Virus record (IMG/VR): IMGVR_UViG_3300049214_000160
Span: 1-24,214 of that record
Length of the DNA: 24,214 nt
Source: a virus
Strand: one strand, 5' to 3'
Part shown: in pieces, positions 15,933 through 21,837 of the stretch
Layout of the letters: the number at the start of each line of letters is the position of its first letter
Position numbering within the stretch: the stretch's first letter is position 1
The notes under the pieces: generated by a model
What the model saw: the letters and a program-made list of their open reading frames with translations, nothing else
Told to the model about the DNA's origin: nothing
Databases searched by the model: none
Made by a program: the position numbers and the translations under genes

Positions 15933-17363
15933 CTAGTGCAACGTGAATTTCTTCAACCCGTTTGGGTTCTTTTCCGAGGCATTGCCCCAATTGAAGCCGG
16001 TTTTGGCTTCGGTTGGGACCGCAAATTTGCGCTTGTTGGGTGCGATGAGTTCAACGTGGAGATGTTTTTCGGCGCGGGGAACTACGTCTTCGGCTTTGAG
16101 ATCGTTGGGAAACTGGAAATAGATTGCGTCGTGAACTTGGGCGAGAAGTTGGACCTCGGGCATATGACGCCAGACGCGCCACATACCGAGATTTAAGTTG
16201 TCGGCCGTAGGTGCTGCGGCGAGAAATGCGAGAGCTTTGCGAAGGGTTTCGTCGGCATAGGTGCGGTCAAAAAAGTCCCGTCGGCGGCCGTGGATTGACA
16301 CAAGTTGTTTCTTTGTCTGCAATTCGGTTGCCGTCCAAGCGTGCCACTTCTGCAACGCGGGGAAGGCGTCGAAGTATTTTTCTTGGAAGGGTTCTACAAG
16401 ATTGATCGGGATGTGAATGAGCTTTGATAGTGTCGGGGCTTTGCCGAGGAAGTTGGTGCCGTGGCCGAGTTTCTTGCAGCAATCTCGGTAGGTGAAGTGG
16501 CGATAGAATGGCTGTTCGGCAATCTTTTTATCTTTTTTCAAATCCCCAGTCCAACCAAGATCGGGCCACGTCAGTCGTGCAACAGCCGTGTGCAAATCTC
16601 CCGACTCACAGGCATCAAGATAGGTCCAGTCGTCGAACAAAAGGCCGCAGATATATCCGACCATTCGGCTATCGCTTTGAGAAGCGTCGATGCCGACAAG
16701 TGTGTATCCTGGGTCGGCAACAAGTATGTGCCGTAATGCTTCGGATATATTCTGTAAATTTGTTCCGCTACCTGTAGGGGACTTGCTTGAACTAAATCGG
16801 GCGCTCTTTGTCCCACCAATGTTATATGAAGTCCTCATTCTCCAATCTAGGTCCACCTCGGTCTCAAGCACCGAGAGCTGTTTAGACAAGTCTCGGTGTT
16901 CCAACACACAGGCTGCAATGGGCCGTGCTTGAAAATAGTCTTCCACTTGCTCAATGATAGCTCGGTCCATAGGAAACTTAAGTTCCCCTTTGACATAGGC
17001 TTTGATTTCTGGGATGCCGAGTCTGCCATAGAATAGCTCCTTTAGTTGCGGGCCAGAGTTCGGATTAAGAGGTTTGTCCCACACCGCATGGGCGAGTTGG
17101 TCGATGACGAAGTCCATCCGGGCGAGTTGGCGTTTGGTTTCGGCAATGCCAAGTTCGCGGGCGGCCGGATCGACGCGGAAGCCCCGGAGCATCATTTCAA
17201 GCACGGGCGCCTGGAGAGCGAGTTCAAAGCTATAGGCCGGCTCGGCCTCCTGGCGCTGGGGCTGGAGCTTTTCAAAGATTTCATGCGTTAAACAGCAATC
17301 GAGAGCGTTATAAATTTGTTCGCTGCCCGAATTTACGTCAAGCGTGTGCGACCCTACTAGCAT
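15933..17363 (-). CDS. DNA polymerase A, polymerase domain (exonuclease N-part encoded separately)
   Basis: 476 residues. The first ~30 residues contain YNALDCC (18-24), the YxxxD Exo III motif of the 3'-5' proofreading domain, whose Exo I and II motifs are at the end of the gene at 18599. Then come thumb and palm: SARFSSS ... TNLQNISEALRHI (187-213), motif A GIDASQSDSR (224-233), motif B RDCCKKLGHG (293-302) and motif C QVHDAIYF (409-416). Unusual residues: D231 at the steric-gate Glu position, H301 at the Phe/Tyr position of motif B, and A413 for the Glu of HDE. The catalytic D226 and D412 are present. The ATG overlaps the stop of the NUMOD3-type gene. Role: copying of the phage genome, presumably with the UDG-exonuclease protein. 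Confidence 0.92.
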   Translation of the reverse strand: MLVGSHTLDVNSGSEQIYNALDCCLTHEIFEKLQPQRQEAEPAYSFELALQAPVLEMMLRGFRVDPAARELGIAETKRQLARMDFVIDQLAHAVWDKPLNPNSGPQLKELFYGRLGIPEIKAYVKGELKFPMDRAIIEQVEDYFQARPIAACVLEHRDLSKQLSVLETEVDLDWRMRTSYNIGGTKSARFSSSKSPTGSGTNLQNISEALRHILVADPGYTLVGIDASQSDSRMVGYICGLLFDDWTYLDACESGDLHTAVARLTWPDLGWTGDLKKDKKIAEQPFYRHFTYRDCCKKLGHGTNFLGKAPTLSKLIHIPINLVEPFQEKYFDAFPALQKWHAWTATELQTKKQLVSIHGRRRDFFDRTYADETLRKALAFLAAAPTADNLNLGMWRVWRHMPEVQLLAQVHDAIYFQFPNDLKAEDVVPRAEKHLHVELIAPNKRKFAVPTEAKTGFNWGNASEKNPNGLKKFTLH

Positions 17364-17644
17364 GAAACATTGCTTTCTTGTTTCTTGGCCCTTTGCTCAG
17401 CATAAAAAGCCAGCATCCGTTTGCTTAGCTTTTCCTTTGTTTTCTCACTGTGCCTAAAGCCTGGAGTTCGGCCCCCGAGACCCTTGTGCAAATGAATACC
17501 TCTAACCCGCATACGCCGCCAGAAAGAGCTTTTGCCTACACCGAGGCGCTGGCATATTTCGTCGCTGCGAAGCCCCTGGGCTATGAGTTTGTCGCAAGCG
17601 GCGTCAAGGCCCGAGTCTTCCCAATCTATTCCGCGCGCTGGCAA
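17357..17644 (-). CDS. HTH/NUMOD3-type DNA-binding protein, homing-endonuclease related
   Basis: 95 residues starting at TTG three bases after the preceding stop codon, with GAGGGAAA upstream. Residues ~14-48 (LDAACDKLIAQGLRSDEICQRLGVGKSSFWRRMR) form a resolvase-like helix-turn-helix. Residues ~61-77 (PGFRHSEKTKEKLSKRM) match the NUMOD3 pattern of DNA-binding modules attached to homing endonucleases. No GIY-YIG, HNH or LAGLIDADG catalytic motif is visible, so it may be a degenerate remnant or a domesticated regulator. Its stop overlaps the polymerase ATG. It lies inside the segment that interrupts the polymerase/exonuclease domain, which suggests that a homing-type element caused the split. 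Confidence 0.65.
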   Translation of the reverse strand: MPARGIDWEDSGLDAACDKLIAQGLRSDEICQRLGVGKSSFWRRMRVRGIHLHKGLGGRTPGFRHSEKTKEKLSKRMLAFYAEQRAKKQESNVSC

Positions 17645-17647
17645 GAT

Positions 17648-17881
17648 TTAGTTTCCCTCTAAGCGAATGATAATAGCTTTGAGCACGGAGATCATGTCAG
17701 CGCGCTCGGCGTTGGATATGTAGTTGCAGAGTTTTGCATCGCTCCCGTCGGCGATGAGCAGAACAAAGGCCGTGGTGCGTTTTTCACCATAATCGTCGCC
17801 ATTGAGCACCCGGTCGATATGAGTGGCAAGGGTTTGCATATCGACGTAGTGTTTTTGGTCAATGGTTTTGTCTTCGGGCAT
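17648..17881 (-). CDS. Small hypothetical phage protein
   Basis: 77 residues from the ATG at 17881, which overlaps the upstream TAA (TAATG) and follows AGAAGGAAC; a longer frame to 17911 has a poorer start. The sequence has an acidic N-terminus (MPEDKTIDQKHYVDMQTL), a central beta-type segment (AFVLLIADGSDAKLCNYISN) and a C-terminal helix (ERADMISVLKAIIIRLEG). The FVLLIADGSDAKLCNYISN stretch resembles a small protein common near phage replication genes, but I know no proven function. It is part of the five-gene block between the exonuclease and polymerase genes. Confidence 0.75.
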   Translation of the reverse strand: MPEDKTIDQKHYVDMQTLATHIDRVLNGDDYGEKRTTAFVLLIADGSDAKLCNYISNAERADMISVLKAIIIRLEGN

Positions 17882-18057
17882 TATATCAGTTCCTTCTCTT
17901 TTGCCAACCATTCGGGCATGGCCATGGTTTTGTCATCCGAGTCCCATTCGCATTGGGATTTAGGCAACCAAACCACACGTTTGCCGTCGAAGAATTGATA
18001 GGCTTTTTCCGTTTCATTTCGGATTTCGCCTGCAATATCGACCAGGTCGCTTTTCAT
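17881..18057 (-). CDS. 58-residue hypothetical phage protein
   Basis: Short gene joined on both sides by overlapping stop/start codons: its ATG overlaps the stop of the MazG-like gene (ATGA) and its TAA overlaps the next ATG (TAATG). The protein is acidic with an N-terminal helix (SDLVDIAGEIRNETEKAYQF), the phrase FDGKRVVWLPKSQCEWD, and an end MPEWLAKEKELI. This WLPKSQ ... MPEWLAxxKxLI layout resembles small proteins seen in other phage replication regions. No catalytic motif. Function unknown; probably translated by coupling because no clear ribosome-binding site is seen. Confidence 0.75.
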   Translation of the reverse strand: MKSDLVDIAGEIRNETEKAYQFFDGKRVVWLPKSQCEWDSDDKTMAMPEWLAKEKELI

Positions 18058-18395
18058 GGTATGGTGCTATGACTGTCAAGCATCTCGGCCCATTGCACGT
18101 GGTAATCGTGCTTCTTTTCAGCCCGAGCGTGTATGCGATCAACGTCAAGTTCAAACCGATCACCGATCAATTGAAGAAAGGCCATGACATCGGCAATTTC
18201 GTCTTCGAGCCAAACCCGATTTGGTTTGCCTGTGGCGGGATTGCTTTCGTCAATGCCTTGGCACAGGCACCGAGCCGCGGCACTAATACATTCGCCAAGT
18301 TCCTCTTGAAACTTGGATAACAGGCCAACGTCGGTTGGATGCGACATGGGTATCCAGGCGCTAGGACGAAGTTCGCCGAGTTCGTGGTCTTCCAT
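18054..18395 (-). CDS. MazG-like nucleotide pyrophosphohydrolase
   Basis: 113 residues. The MazG/all-alpha NTP pyrophosphatase motifs are visible: KFQEELGECISAAARC (residues ~28-43), holding the ExxE metal-binding pair, and WLEDEIADVMAFLQLIGDRF (~63-82), holding the ExxxD motif. These enzymes hydrolyse nucleoside triphosphates to monophosphates; in phages they may clear non-canonical nucleotides or lower (p)ppGpp. With the ribonucleotide reductase and the UDG domain, it suggests control of the dNTP pool and uracil in DNA. The ATG follows the upstream stop by three bases, with GAGG as a weak binding site. Confidence 0.82.
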   Translation of the reverse strand: MEDHELGELRPSAWIPMSHPTDVGLLSKFQEELGECISAAARCLCQGIDESNPATGKPNRVWLEDEIADVMAFLQLIGDRFELDVDRIHARAEKKHDYHVQWAEMLDSHSTIP

Positions 18396-18398
18396 AAT

Positions 18399-18596
18399 TT
18401 ATGCCTCGTCATTTGGTAAAAGGGTTTTGGCCACAACTTGTTGACATTCGCCGCAATAAAGATACGGGCCGAAGCCGCCGCCAGCAAGGCCGAAGCCGTC
18501 GGTGAAGAAGGGAAACGGGCAAGCGAGATTGCCGCAGTGCTTTTCTTCACCGAGTTCGGGAATGTTGCGGTTTTTGTCGCTGCTATCTATGTGCAT
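18399..18596 (-). CDS. Small zinc-ribbon-like protein
   Basis: 65 residues with four cysteines, C21 and C26 (CGNLAC) and C48 and C51 (CGEC), a spacing compatible with one structural zinc site. Between them is a Gly/Phe-rich segment (FFTDGFGLAGGGFGPYLY). The ATG lies two bases after the stop codon of the UDG-exonuclease gene. Such small zinc ribbons may bind nucleic acid or a partner protein. No named family recognised. It is the first gene of the block separating the exonuclease part from the polymerase part. Confidence 0.7.
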   Translation of the reverse strand: MHIDSSDKNRNIPELGEEKHCGNLACPFPFFTDGFGLAGGGFGPYLYCGECQQVVAKTLLPNDEA

Positions 18597-18598
18597 GA

Positions 18599-19696
18599 CT
18601 ATTCATCCCTCTTGAGGTTATTGCCCCGACCGCTCATAGTCTTCCAAGCAATCTCGTCCGAATATATACTGCCAAGGAACCCGAGGCTTTTCAGCATTTC
18701 CGGATAAAGCGCGTGGTGAAGTAGCATGGTGTCGTTATGGCAGGCCGCAGGGCGAAACTTCCGTGTGAGCAAATGTGATAAGTCGTAAACCCCATTTTGG
18801 AATAGTTTGGGAATGGGCGAAGCCAAGGCTTGTTGGGCCAGGCGCCAGGCCGCGACTTCATCCCGCACCGAAGGCCAGTAGTTGCCGCCCGGCTTGGTTT
18901 CGTCGAAGAATGGAATTACCATGGCGTCGTTGTGCGCCCGGGCGAAGCCGATCATGGCGATCTGGCCCGACAAGTATGCGGGCTTGCCACCAGGACTTAC
19001 GAGTTTTGGGTTCTCGATATCAACCGCGTAGAATTCGGCGGGACGGGTCAACCATTCTCGGATTTCATCCAAGGTGGGGTTGACGGTGAGCCAACGCTCA
19101 ATCCGGTTGATATGAGTAGTTGCTGCTTCACGCTCGGCTTTTTCAAGGTCTGCGAGCACAATGGGACGAAGGTTCCACTGGCGCAAAACAGCGGCAGGAT
19201 GATATGTGGGAAGGACTTTGACTCCGAGGCGGGCGGACATTTGAAGCGTGCCTCGGAGGGCGGAGATTTTGGTTTCGCCAAGCAGAGCCCAGCAAGCTGT
19301 GTTGCCGAACGCAATAACAAGATTGGGTTTTTCACATTCAATCTCATGCCAAAGATTGGTAAGATGAGGCAAATACTCAGACTTGAGATACTTGCCGCGC
19401 TTCAACGGCGGAAGTTCTGCGACACCAGACTTTGCATCGGTGAAAAATAGTTCCACATTGTTGTCTGTGGGCCGGCAGTTGAATACGTTGGCCAAGGCTA
19501 TGTCGTGGTTTGACCGAAGCTCTTGCCAAAACGTGATCATTTCAAGCTCGGAAGGTTTATCGTAGGGCAAGGCCGGGGCGAGTTTGGCCTGGTGGAGCAT
19601 TTTGGCAAGCTCGACGCCCGAGTAGCCGACAAAAGCGTGCTCGAACAGGTTTTCCCGTTCGCCCCAGGCTTCGCCAACAAGGACAATTTTAGACAT
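18599..19696 (-). CDS. Uracil-DNA glycosylase fused to N-part of polymerase 3'-5' exonuclease
   Basis: 365 residues. Residues ~1-190 are a uracil-DNA glycosylase-superfamily domain: GEAWGE (8-13), FVGYSG (22-27), NVFNCRP (70-76) and TYHPAAVLR (164-172). Residues ~215-365 begin a DnaQ-like proofreading domain: Exo I in FYAVDIENP (D226, E228), Exo II in NGVYDL (N301, D305), then DTMLLHHALYPEMLKSLGFLGSIY. The protein ends abruptly at NLKRDE just where the Exo III helix should follow; that helix (QIYNALDCC) is at the start of the polymerase gene 1.28 kb downstream. A UDG-like domain joined to family A polymerases is known from some phages. The start overlaps the preceding stop by eight bases. Confidence 0.88.
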   Translation of the reverse strand: MSKIVLVGEAWGERENLFEHAFVGYSGVELAKMLHQAKLAPALPYDKPSELEMITFWQELRSNHDIALANVFNCRPTDNNVELFFTDAKSGVAELPPLKRGKYLKSEYLPHLTNLWHEIECEKPNLVIAFGNTACWALLGETKISALRGTLQMSARLGVKVLPTYHPAAVLRQWNLRPIVLADLEKAEREAATTHINRIERWLTVNPTLDEIREWLTRPAEFYAVDIENPKLVSPGGKPAYLSGQIAMIGFARAHNDAMVIPFFDETKPGGNYWPSVRDEVAAWRLAQQALASPIPKLFQNGVYDLSHLLTRKFRPAACHNDTMLLHHALYPEMLKSLGFLGSIYSDEIAWKTMSGRGNNLKRDE

Positions 19697-20310: not shown

Positions 20311-21837
20311 TTAATTTTCCTCCCGGTTCAACATACCGGCTTGGCGCAAAACCCTGGCTTGCAAAGTCCTGGCGTTGGCCGAGGCAGCATAGTTCGGGTC
20401 CATTTCTATGCCAAGAATGGATTTGGCGCCGAGGTCTTCCGCCGCGCGCAGGGCTGCGCCCGAGCCGCAAGTCGGGTCCAAAACATTTGTGGTTTCGTCC
20501 ACAACCATAGAGAGAAAGTGGCGGAGCATGGGTTCGGGCTTTTGGGAGGGGTGAATTTTATTGCCGACGGTGGGGGCGGCATAGCTGTTCATGCCTGGCT
20601 TGGCTAGGGGGCGATTGCCCCGCACCGCTAGTAGGGCAGTGTCATAAGTGCGCCTGGGATAGGTGGTAGCGGTCCCTGGCACCACGCCTAGGCCACCGCC
20701 ACCGCCAGGGGTCTTGTGCCACACTAGGGGATGGTCATGGACCATCAGCCCAGCCCCACGCAAGCGCCGCACGGTTTCCGTATAGAAGTTCATGTTGAAC
20801 CAAAAAACGAGGTGAGCGCTGTAGCTCATGAGCCGATCTAGGTTTTCAACCAAACCGTTGAGCAAGTCCCAATAGATGCTCTCGTGATTGTCGTAGAAGT
20901 TCTCGGTCTCCACACCGGCCATTGAGCCCTTGCTGTCTTCGCCCTTGTAGTTGCCATACGGAAAGTCGCAATGGATGAGGGAGAACTTTGGACCGTCGTA
21001 GGTTTTGGCCCAAAGCAGAAAGTCGGCATTGATGATAGGATTTTCCGGCTTGACCACTGCGTCAATGTATTTGACCATGACGCCGGTTTCCACACCGGAG
21101 GTTGGGGCCTTGGCTTTGGCATTTATGCTGTCGAACATATCAAATACGGCCGAGTCGGCTTTGCGTTCCTCTGCAATCTTGACGCTCGATGTAATAGTGA
21201 AGTCGCCGTCGGCCGCAGGCTGGGGTTTGGTGGAAATATTGAGGTCGCCGAATGAGTTAAATACCGCAGCGCCGTTGGCAATGATATCGGTCACGATGCT
21301 TTCAGCCTTGCGCTCGGCAAACTTTGCAAGCGTGTTATACGCTTGTTCGATGCTTTCAACGTGCGCAATACGGGGCGAGTCTAGGTTGTCATAGACTCGG
21401 AGGATTTTGTGCAAATGGGTTTGGTGGATGGATAGGGCCTGGCAGGTCTGCGACACGAGCCAATTCTTGTTGCTTTTCATGTATAGGGCGTGTAGACGGC
21501 CGACCGAGCGCACATGGTCTCGCCACAACAAATCTTTCCGCTTGACATTCTCTTCAAGTTCGATGACCTCGGCCTCGGCCTCGGTAAGGGCCTCGTATGA
21601 GCGCACAGGGACGGTTTCGAGTTCGAGTGCAATCGAGGCCAAGAGGCGCCTTTCACCGGCTACAAGAACGTGTTGGTCTTTGATCTTGCGGCAAACGATC
21701 GGATTGATTATGCCCGTGGCTTTTATACTTGCTTTCAGGTCTTCAAATTCATGCACGTTGAGTTGGCGCTGGCGAGTTTCCCGACGCACAACAATGGTTT
21801 TTGGATCAAGCAATAAGTCAGTTGCGACGAGGGACAT
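20311..21837 (-). CDS. ParB-like nuclease domain fused to DNA (N4/N6) methyltransferase
   Basis: 508 residues. Residues ~1-175 are ParB/Srx-like: ASIKATGIINPIVCRK, HVLVAGERRLLAS (GERR at 61-64), an ELEENVKRKDL segment and a KorB-type helix-turn-helix region. Residues ~275-490 are an amino-methyltransferase in beta order: motif IV as CDFPYG (290-295), a variant of DPPY, then HPSQKP (429-434), then motif I DPTCGSG (454-460) and GIEMD. It should methylate adenine N6 or cytosine N4. ParB-methylase fusions are frequent in phages and mobile elements; no restriction enzyme is nearby, so protection of the phage genome from host restriction or gene regulation is likely. A 37-bp palindrome lies 17 bases before the ATG. 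Confidence 0.9.
   Translation of the reverse strand: MSLVATDLLLDPKTIVVRRETRQRQLNVHEFEDLKASIKATGIINPIVCRKIKDQHVLVAGERRLLASIALELETVPVRSYEALTEAEAEVIELEENVKRKDLLWRDHVRSVGRLHALYMKSNKNWLVSQTCQALSIHQTHLHKILRVYDNLDSPRIAHVESIEQAYNTLAKFAERKAESIVTDIIANGAAVFNSFGDLNISTKPQPAADGDFTITSSVKIAEERKADSAVFDMFDSINAKAKAPTSGVETGVMVKYIDAVVKPENPIINADFLLWAKTYDGPKFSLIHCDFPYGNYKGEDSKGSMAGVETENFYDNHESIYWDLLNGLVENLDRLMSYSAHLVFWFNMNFYTETVRRLRGAGLMVHDHPLVWHKTPGGGGGLGVVPGTATTYPRRTYDTALLAVRGNRPLAKPGMNSYAAPTVGNKIHPSQKPEPMLRHFLSMVVDETTNVLDPTCGSGAALRAAEDLGAKSILGIEMDPNYAASANARTLQARVLRQAGMLNREEN

Follow-up and report, generated by a model that had tools for sequence, protein, structure and literature searches.

A virus contig of 24,214 nucleotides (nt; IMG/VR record IMGVR_UViG_3300049214_000160, positions 1 to 24,214, the whole of which is referred to below as the window) very probably encodes a family-A DNA polymerase that was split in ancient times into two subunits, expressed from separate genes, with a proofreading site built from both chains. 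The first gene, called EXO here, would provide a uracil-DNA glycosylase (UDG)-like domain and most of the proofreading exonuclease, while the second, POL, would provide the missing Exo III helix and the polymerase. The two proteins would be separate translation products of one closely packed operon and would associate non-covalently, the exonuclease active site being completed in trans. Genes at the junction (five in the window, including a MazG-like one) would have entered or left repeatedly after the split.

Two halves of one polymerase

The entire operon is located on the minus strand, to which all window coordinates below refer, and consists of EXO, five small genes, POL, and further genes, in that order. 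EXO (18599–19696) codes for a 365-amino-acid UDG-exonuclease, as judged from a Pfam UDG match (E = 5e-17, residues 2–176), from its alignment to positions 544–785 of the PHROG family 17 (DNA polymerase) profile, and from an alignment of 14 relatives. The protein contains the Exo I motif VDIE, with D226 and E228 (19013–19021), and the Exo II aspartate D305 in the motif NGVYD (18782–18784), and ends with NNLKRDE and a stop codon. POL (15933–17363, 476 amino acids) starts with MLVGSHTLDVNSGSE-QIYNALDCC, i.e., a 15-residue extension followed by Exo III (Y18-N-A-L-D22, 17298–17312) and then by the thumb, palm, and fingers of a family-A DNA polymerase (Pfam DNA_pol_A, E = 1e-25; PHROG 17 positions 809–1245, E = 7e-53). 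Because the PHROG 17 profile aligns to EXO and POL in succession, the two are consecutive parts of one polymerase. A preliminary description of this DNA, made from the letters alone, had placed Exo I and Exo II in the UDG-exonuclease protein and Exo III only in POL, and both gene anatomy and the profile mapping bear this out. The UDG domain of EXO scored 56 bits, far below the family-4 cut-off of 125.3 bits, and its match at E = 5e-17 is to the superfamily. A profile search of the PDB with EXO returned almost solely UDGs; the exonuclease part has diverged too far to be matched by sequence to solved structures.

The residues expected of a proofreading polymerase are retained in both halves. In homologues collected as described below, the Exo I aspartate and glutamate and the Exo II aspartate were present in 118 of 118 aligned EXO halves, and the Exo III tyrosine and aspartate in 120 of 120 aligned POL halves. 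The aspartates of polymerase motifs A and C and the R/K of motif B were kept in all rows covering them. The set comprising Exo I D/E, Exo II D, and Exo III Y-x3-D is complete only in the EXO and POL pair, with three residues contributed by EXO and two by POL. In domains, residues, and fold the pair corresponds to a family-A proofreading polymerase; it departs from one in not being a single polypeptide, since each of the 123 distinct split loci has two genes.

Loss of the exonuclease has occurred in some phage PolA lineages, and the exonuclease half could in principle be a decaying remnant accompanying a polymerase that works without proofreading. We consider this very unlikely. In divPolA1, a phage PolA lineage without proofreading, all three aspartates are replaced (PMC11348598), whereas the catalytic residues of EXO and POL are invariant over 118–120 diverse loci. 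Because all of these residues are kept, whereas divPolA1 has replaced its aspartates, the exonuclease site is predicted to be functional, and we infer that the EXO and POL pair has proofreading activity.

The fit between the halves was evaluated with the help of a homologous pair, L073 (locus numbers are our own), in which both genes are in one frame, with 48 codons between them, five of which are stops. AlphaFold2 was run on the read-through chain with an alignment that combined EXO and POL rows with fused relatives. The model had a mean predicted local distance difference test score (pLDDT) of 91.5 and a predicted template modelling score of 0.88, with residues 331–383 (53 residues, which include the tail of EXO and the greater part of the linker) disordered at pLDDT <50. 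Residues 178–859, which extend across both halves, matched Klenow fragment residues 325–928 (1kfs) with a Z score of 30.7 over 557 residues, at 3.9 Å and 23% identity. The N-terminal extension of POL (M-L-V-G-S-H..., 17313–17363), which is not found in fused relatives, includes a predicted beta strand, located at positions 388–391 of the model. Its M-x-[IV]-[IV]-x-[TS]-[HDS] start is kept in most relatives, and a count of synonymous versus non-synonymous changes over its 17 codons gave no clear signal. The model speaks for the compatibility of the two halves with a single Klenow-like enzyme, rather than for their binding.

Physical association of EXO and POL, and with it a composite exonuclease site, is likely. 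The distance matrices of the two proteins are correlated, with r of 0.78 over 82 pairs. Several considerations weigh against this interpretation. A correlation of this kind is expected for any two co-inherited genes and is no proof of contact. Modelling a single read-through chain favours contact between its parts, and the alignment used included fused relatives. Ribosome binding, instead of protein contact, may account for part of the conservation of the EXO tail. A role of the pair as the phage replicase is suggested by the gene neighbourhood, which includes genes for ribonucleotide reductase and for AAA and DUF3987 proteins.

A proofreading site shared by two natural chains would allow direct tests of the control of fidelity by subunit binding, and such a polymerase would have an exonuclease that can be added or left out. 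A more far-reaching proposal is that the enzyme is an obligate heterodimer throughout the lineage, with the UDG-exonuclease acting as a dissociable subunit by which proofreading is turned on and off, or being supplied at another dose than the polymerase, and with the two-piece active site itself being selected; we regard this as improbable, though worth stating.

The same division in related loci

Relatives were collected by searching IMG/VR and bacterial genome contigs with EXO and POL. The two large scans returned the best 80 loci each, and the counts given here describe the neighbourhood of this family rather than all phages; loci were treated as distinct when the last 120 nt of EXO were different. 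At least 123 distinct loci, nearly all of them in viral contigs, had the identical two-gene division at the same place. The presence of the same split in many independent contigs excludes an assembly error at the junction, which had been raised as a concern. The ends of the two proteins were also similar from locus to locus. EXO nearly always ended a few residues past a W-K motif, in K-[RK]-[DE]-[DE], and POL started 15–27 residues ahead of Exo III, most often with M-x-[IV]-[IV]-x-[TS].

The distance between the two genes was highly variable. It ranged from −4 (an overlap) to 2,793 nt over the split loci, and was 8 nt or less in 17 loci, with TAATG, TGATG, or ATGA junctions that are typical of coupled translation. 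EXO and POL overlapped in, for example, L012 and L087, and overlaps of 4 or 1 nt occurred. In L005, which belongs to the three-member subclade of the window, just 2 nt separated the EXO stop from the POL start. The preliminary description had attributed the split to a five-gene insertion; this explanation fails, as the same split exists with 2 nt (L005) or an overlap (L012, L087) at the junction, and the insert differs in nearly every relative.

The same loci bear on two ways in which EXO and POL could be rejoined. The first is that the 1.28-kb region represents a gene-carrying, self-splicing intron of group I or II, with the exons being joined in RNA. Introns are common in phage polymerase genes, and one was considered for a different split PolA (PMC10580990); in the window, GAA is found on both sides of the junction, and the joined sequence makes sense. 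Yet an Rfam search of positions 17000–18900 on both strands, at E values of up to 10, detected no group I or group II intron model. The region has its own stop and start codons at its ends and packed coding sequence in between, the split is present in loci whose genes are 2 nt apart or overlap by 4 or 1 nt, and the shared glutamate is not conserved, the residue before Exo III being Glu in no more than 43 of the 120 POL halves. The GAA on both sides, which had been taken as a meaningful mark of the junction, is probably a chance feature of the window rather than a property of the lineage, and was rejected as a trace of splicing or duplication. An intron is thus most improbable. When it was proposed that the proofreading site must form from two polypeptides or from a spliced RNA, the first option was well founded, and the second finds no intron match and is contradicted by relatives whose genes are 2 nt apart or overlap.

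The second way is joining after translation by a split intein, which we consider next to impossible. Some members of this polymerase family do appear to contain inteins; nevertheless, EXO ends right past its exonuclease domain and POL begins about 15–27 residues before Exo III, which leaves no space for the halves of an intein. Because relatives have adjacent or overlapping EXO and POL genes, their junctions can accommodate neither an intron nor a split intein. A programmed frameshift joining EXO to POL was also considered and discarded, as it needs adjacency of the two genes, which is absent from most loci.

The apparent inteins are in-frame inserts in the POL half of L011 (5995–8343, insert of 293 amino acids), L101 (7402–9312, 143 amino acids), and L125 (7840–10098, 293 amino acids). 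Each has a cysteine at the start and ..GN before a serine at the end, and none received a Pfam name. Two of the inserts share a site (after the position equivalent to window residue 302), and one is located elsewhere (after residue 253).

When a maximum-likelihood tree was built from the polymerase part, the 82 split representatives grouped in one clade with an SH-like approximate likelihood ratio test support of 98 and with no fused member inside. The fused relatives are distant, at about 30% identity; they comprise MW202489 (L003) and its IMG/VR kin L207–L223, and other fused ones exist. A divergent set of split loci (L176, L224, L225, and L226) has a POL without the N-terminal M-x-I-I-x-T-H strand. 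From their sequences, these loci may have branched off at the base or have been split independently. A single clade of all split rows, including L176, was not rejected (approximately unbiased test, p = 0.475), and the tree tests do not separate one from two origins of the split once the long-branch L176 is included. The split is old and lineage-wide, and is not peculiar to the window phage.

Translation at the junction and the intervening genes

In the window, the stop codon of EXO and the ATG of POL are separated by exactly 1,235 nt, which contain five small open reading frames (ORFs). The seven genes from EXO to POL are closely packed, with spacings of 2, 3, −4, −1, 3, and −7 nt, the last value being the overlap of the POL start with the last small ORF. 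The EXO tail LKRDE (18602–18616, codons CTC AAG AGG GAT GAA), whose lysine is present in 118 of 118 relatives, lies just ahead of the next start codon, and the last codons of EXO contain a Shine-Dalgarno-like AAGAGGGA. The tail arginine is encoded by AGG in 32 of 64 cases, compared with 8.6% at other places in these genes (p = 4e-17, a value that overstates independence, the loci being related). This suggests that a ribosome-binding site overlaps the C-terminus of EXO, and is consistent with a genuine end of the gene at this point, used for the ribosome start that follows; the AGG-rich tail fits independent translation of the next gene. Separate translation of EXO and POL is strongly supported.

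The first of the five intervening genes (18399–18596, 65 amino acids) had been labelled a zinc-ribbon protein. It had no Pfam or PHROG match, and the label was thus not confirmed; weak tblastn matches to it were found in the gaps of L015 and L019. The label of the second (18054–18395, 113 amino acids), a MazG-like nucleotide pyrophosphohydrolase, was upheld by PHROG 4856 (E = 1e-13), with a Pfam MazG-like match below the cut-off (E = 1e-4) and relatives in the gaps of L015, L018, and L019. The third (17881–18057, 58 amino acids) matched PHROG 8389 (E = 2.5e-10) and has gap copies that are 61–76% identical in L015, L016, L017, L018, and L021. The fourth (17648–17911, 87 amino acids as listed) matched PHROG 35296 (E = 9e-13) and has relatives in L015 and L019; judging from gene packing, its start is more likely at a TAATG overlap near 17881. 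The fifth (17357–17644, 95 amino acids, TTG start), which had been described as a helix-turn-helix (HTH)/NUMOD3 protein, resembled HTH_23 (E = 0.005) and NUMOD3 (E = 0.029) only below the Pfam cut-offs, too weakly for that label. Apart from this sub-threshold resemblance, Pfam detected no endonuclease domain (GIY-YIG, HNH, or LAGLIDADG) in the window insert.

The contents of the gaps differ from locus to locus. Among 82 representative loci, 82 of the 124 gap ORFs matched none of the other gap ORFs. Genes that did recur code for DUF7768 proteins, MazG-like proteins, the 58-amino-acid protein of the window, and HNH endonucleases. Gap sizes were scattered inside the split clade: the three members of the window's subclade had gaps of 1,235 (window), 783 (L017), and 2 nt (L005) side by side, and gaps of 392, 2, and 2,154 nt were found in L045, L143, and L055, respectively. 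Because gap size and gene set vary among relatives, the polymerase of the window phage was not split by the five genes. The intervening genes appear to be changeable cargo, and the junction a natural record of repeated gene entry and departure at one spot. The commonest gap gene codes for a DUF7768 protein, with a single cluster of 15 (L097:1336–1824 and 14 other gap ORFs) among the 82 representatives.

The ancestral split itself might have been made by insertion of a homing endonuclease gene, with the endonuclease later lost or replaced in most descendants. Such an origin is compatible with a two-subunit enzyme, and we hold it as a tentative possibility, on balance unlikely. HNH endonuclease genes were found in about 5 of the 82 representative gaps (L038, L066, L091, L115, and L173), the window contains the weak HTH/NUMOD3-like ORF, and there is a precedent in PMC2988022: in the case of nrdA in phage Aeh1, such an origin has been proposed, and for gene 43 in the T4-like Aeromonas phages it has been discussed. 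However, most gaps contain no endonuclease gene, those present may postdate the split, as PMC2988022 considers for phage 25, and the present sample allows no reconstruction of an ancestral insert. The homing-type origin put forward in the preliminary description may therefore apply to the ancestral split, given the HNH genes, but the window ORF on which it was based is too weak a match to carry it.

Known split polymerases and the place of the window

Phage polymerases encoded by split genes are already known. The family-B polymerase of T4-like Aeromonas phages 25 and 44RR is encoded by two genes, 43A and 43B, with other sequence between them, and the proteins co-purify and are active; an endonuclease origin of that split was left open, since the endonuclease may postdate it (PMC2988022). 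EXO and POL resemble 43A and 43B in that a phage polymerase, replicative in the Aeromonas phages and presumably in the window phage too, is encoded in two genes with sequence between them. The Aeromonas case differs in belonging to family B, in being confined to a few phages, and in having a seg endonuclease or an untranslated spacer between the genes. In OM43 phages MEP401 and MEP402, PolA is split into two ORFs with a small gene between them, an arrangement found in most of that phage group (PMC10580990). There, unlike in EXO and POL, the cut is inside the polymerase domain, and the exonuclease domain (PF01612) is whole in the first ORF. EXO and POL qualify as a split polymerase in the same sense, as separately translated parts that jointly cover the whole enzyme, according to the PHROG 17 mapping and their separate starts and stops. 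What appears to be new is a cut that passes through the exonuclease site and extends over a lineage: in a literature search of partial coverage, we came across no account of a polymerase divided between Exo II and Exo III throughout a lineage.

With the Klenow fragment, PHROG 17 phage polymerases, and fused UDG-exonuclease-polymerases (L003/MW202489, L207–L219), EXO and POL share domain order, catalytic residues, and predicted fold. The fused family-A polymerases are one polypeptide, whereas the split clade has two, with an added tail after the exonuclease W-K and an N-terminal strand in POL. Genomes with the split arrangement are likely to be misread as being without proofreading, or as having an intron or an insertion in polA, an annotation that would be corrected by recognition of the two subunits.

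The sole cultured phage that we found in the split lineage is Caulobacter phage Kuura (OQ067476), in which Kuura_029 is the UDG-exonuclease half and Kuura_026 the polymerase, with two small genes between them. The word "split" is absent from the paper describing Kuura (PMC9959647). Kuura_029 (27782–28891 of the record) is annotated as a hypothetical protein, while it is actually the UDG-exonuclease half of the polymerase.

Besides the ribonucleotide reductase, AAA, and DUF3987 genes mentioned above, the neighbourhood of EXO and POL in the window includes a gene in the replication operon (20314–21837, minus strand) that codes for a 508-amino-acid protein in which a ParB N-terminal domain is fused to a DNA N4/N6 methyltransferase domain.

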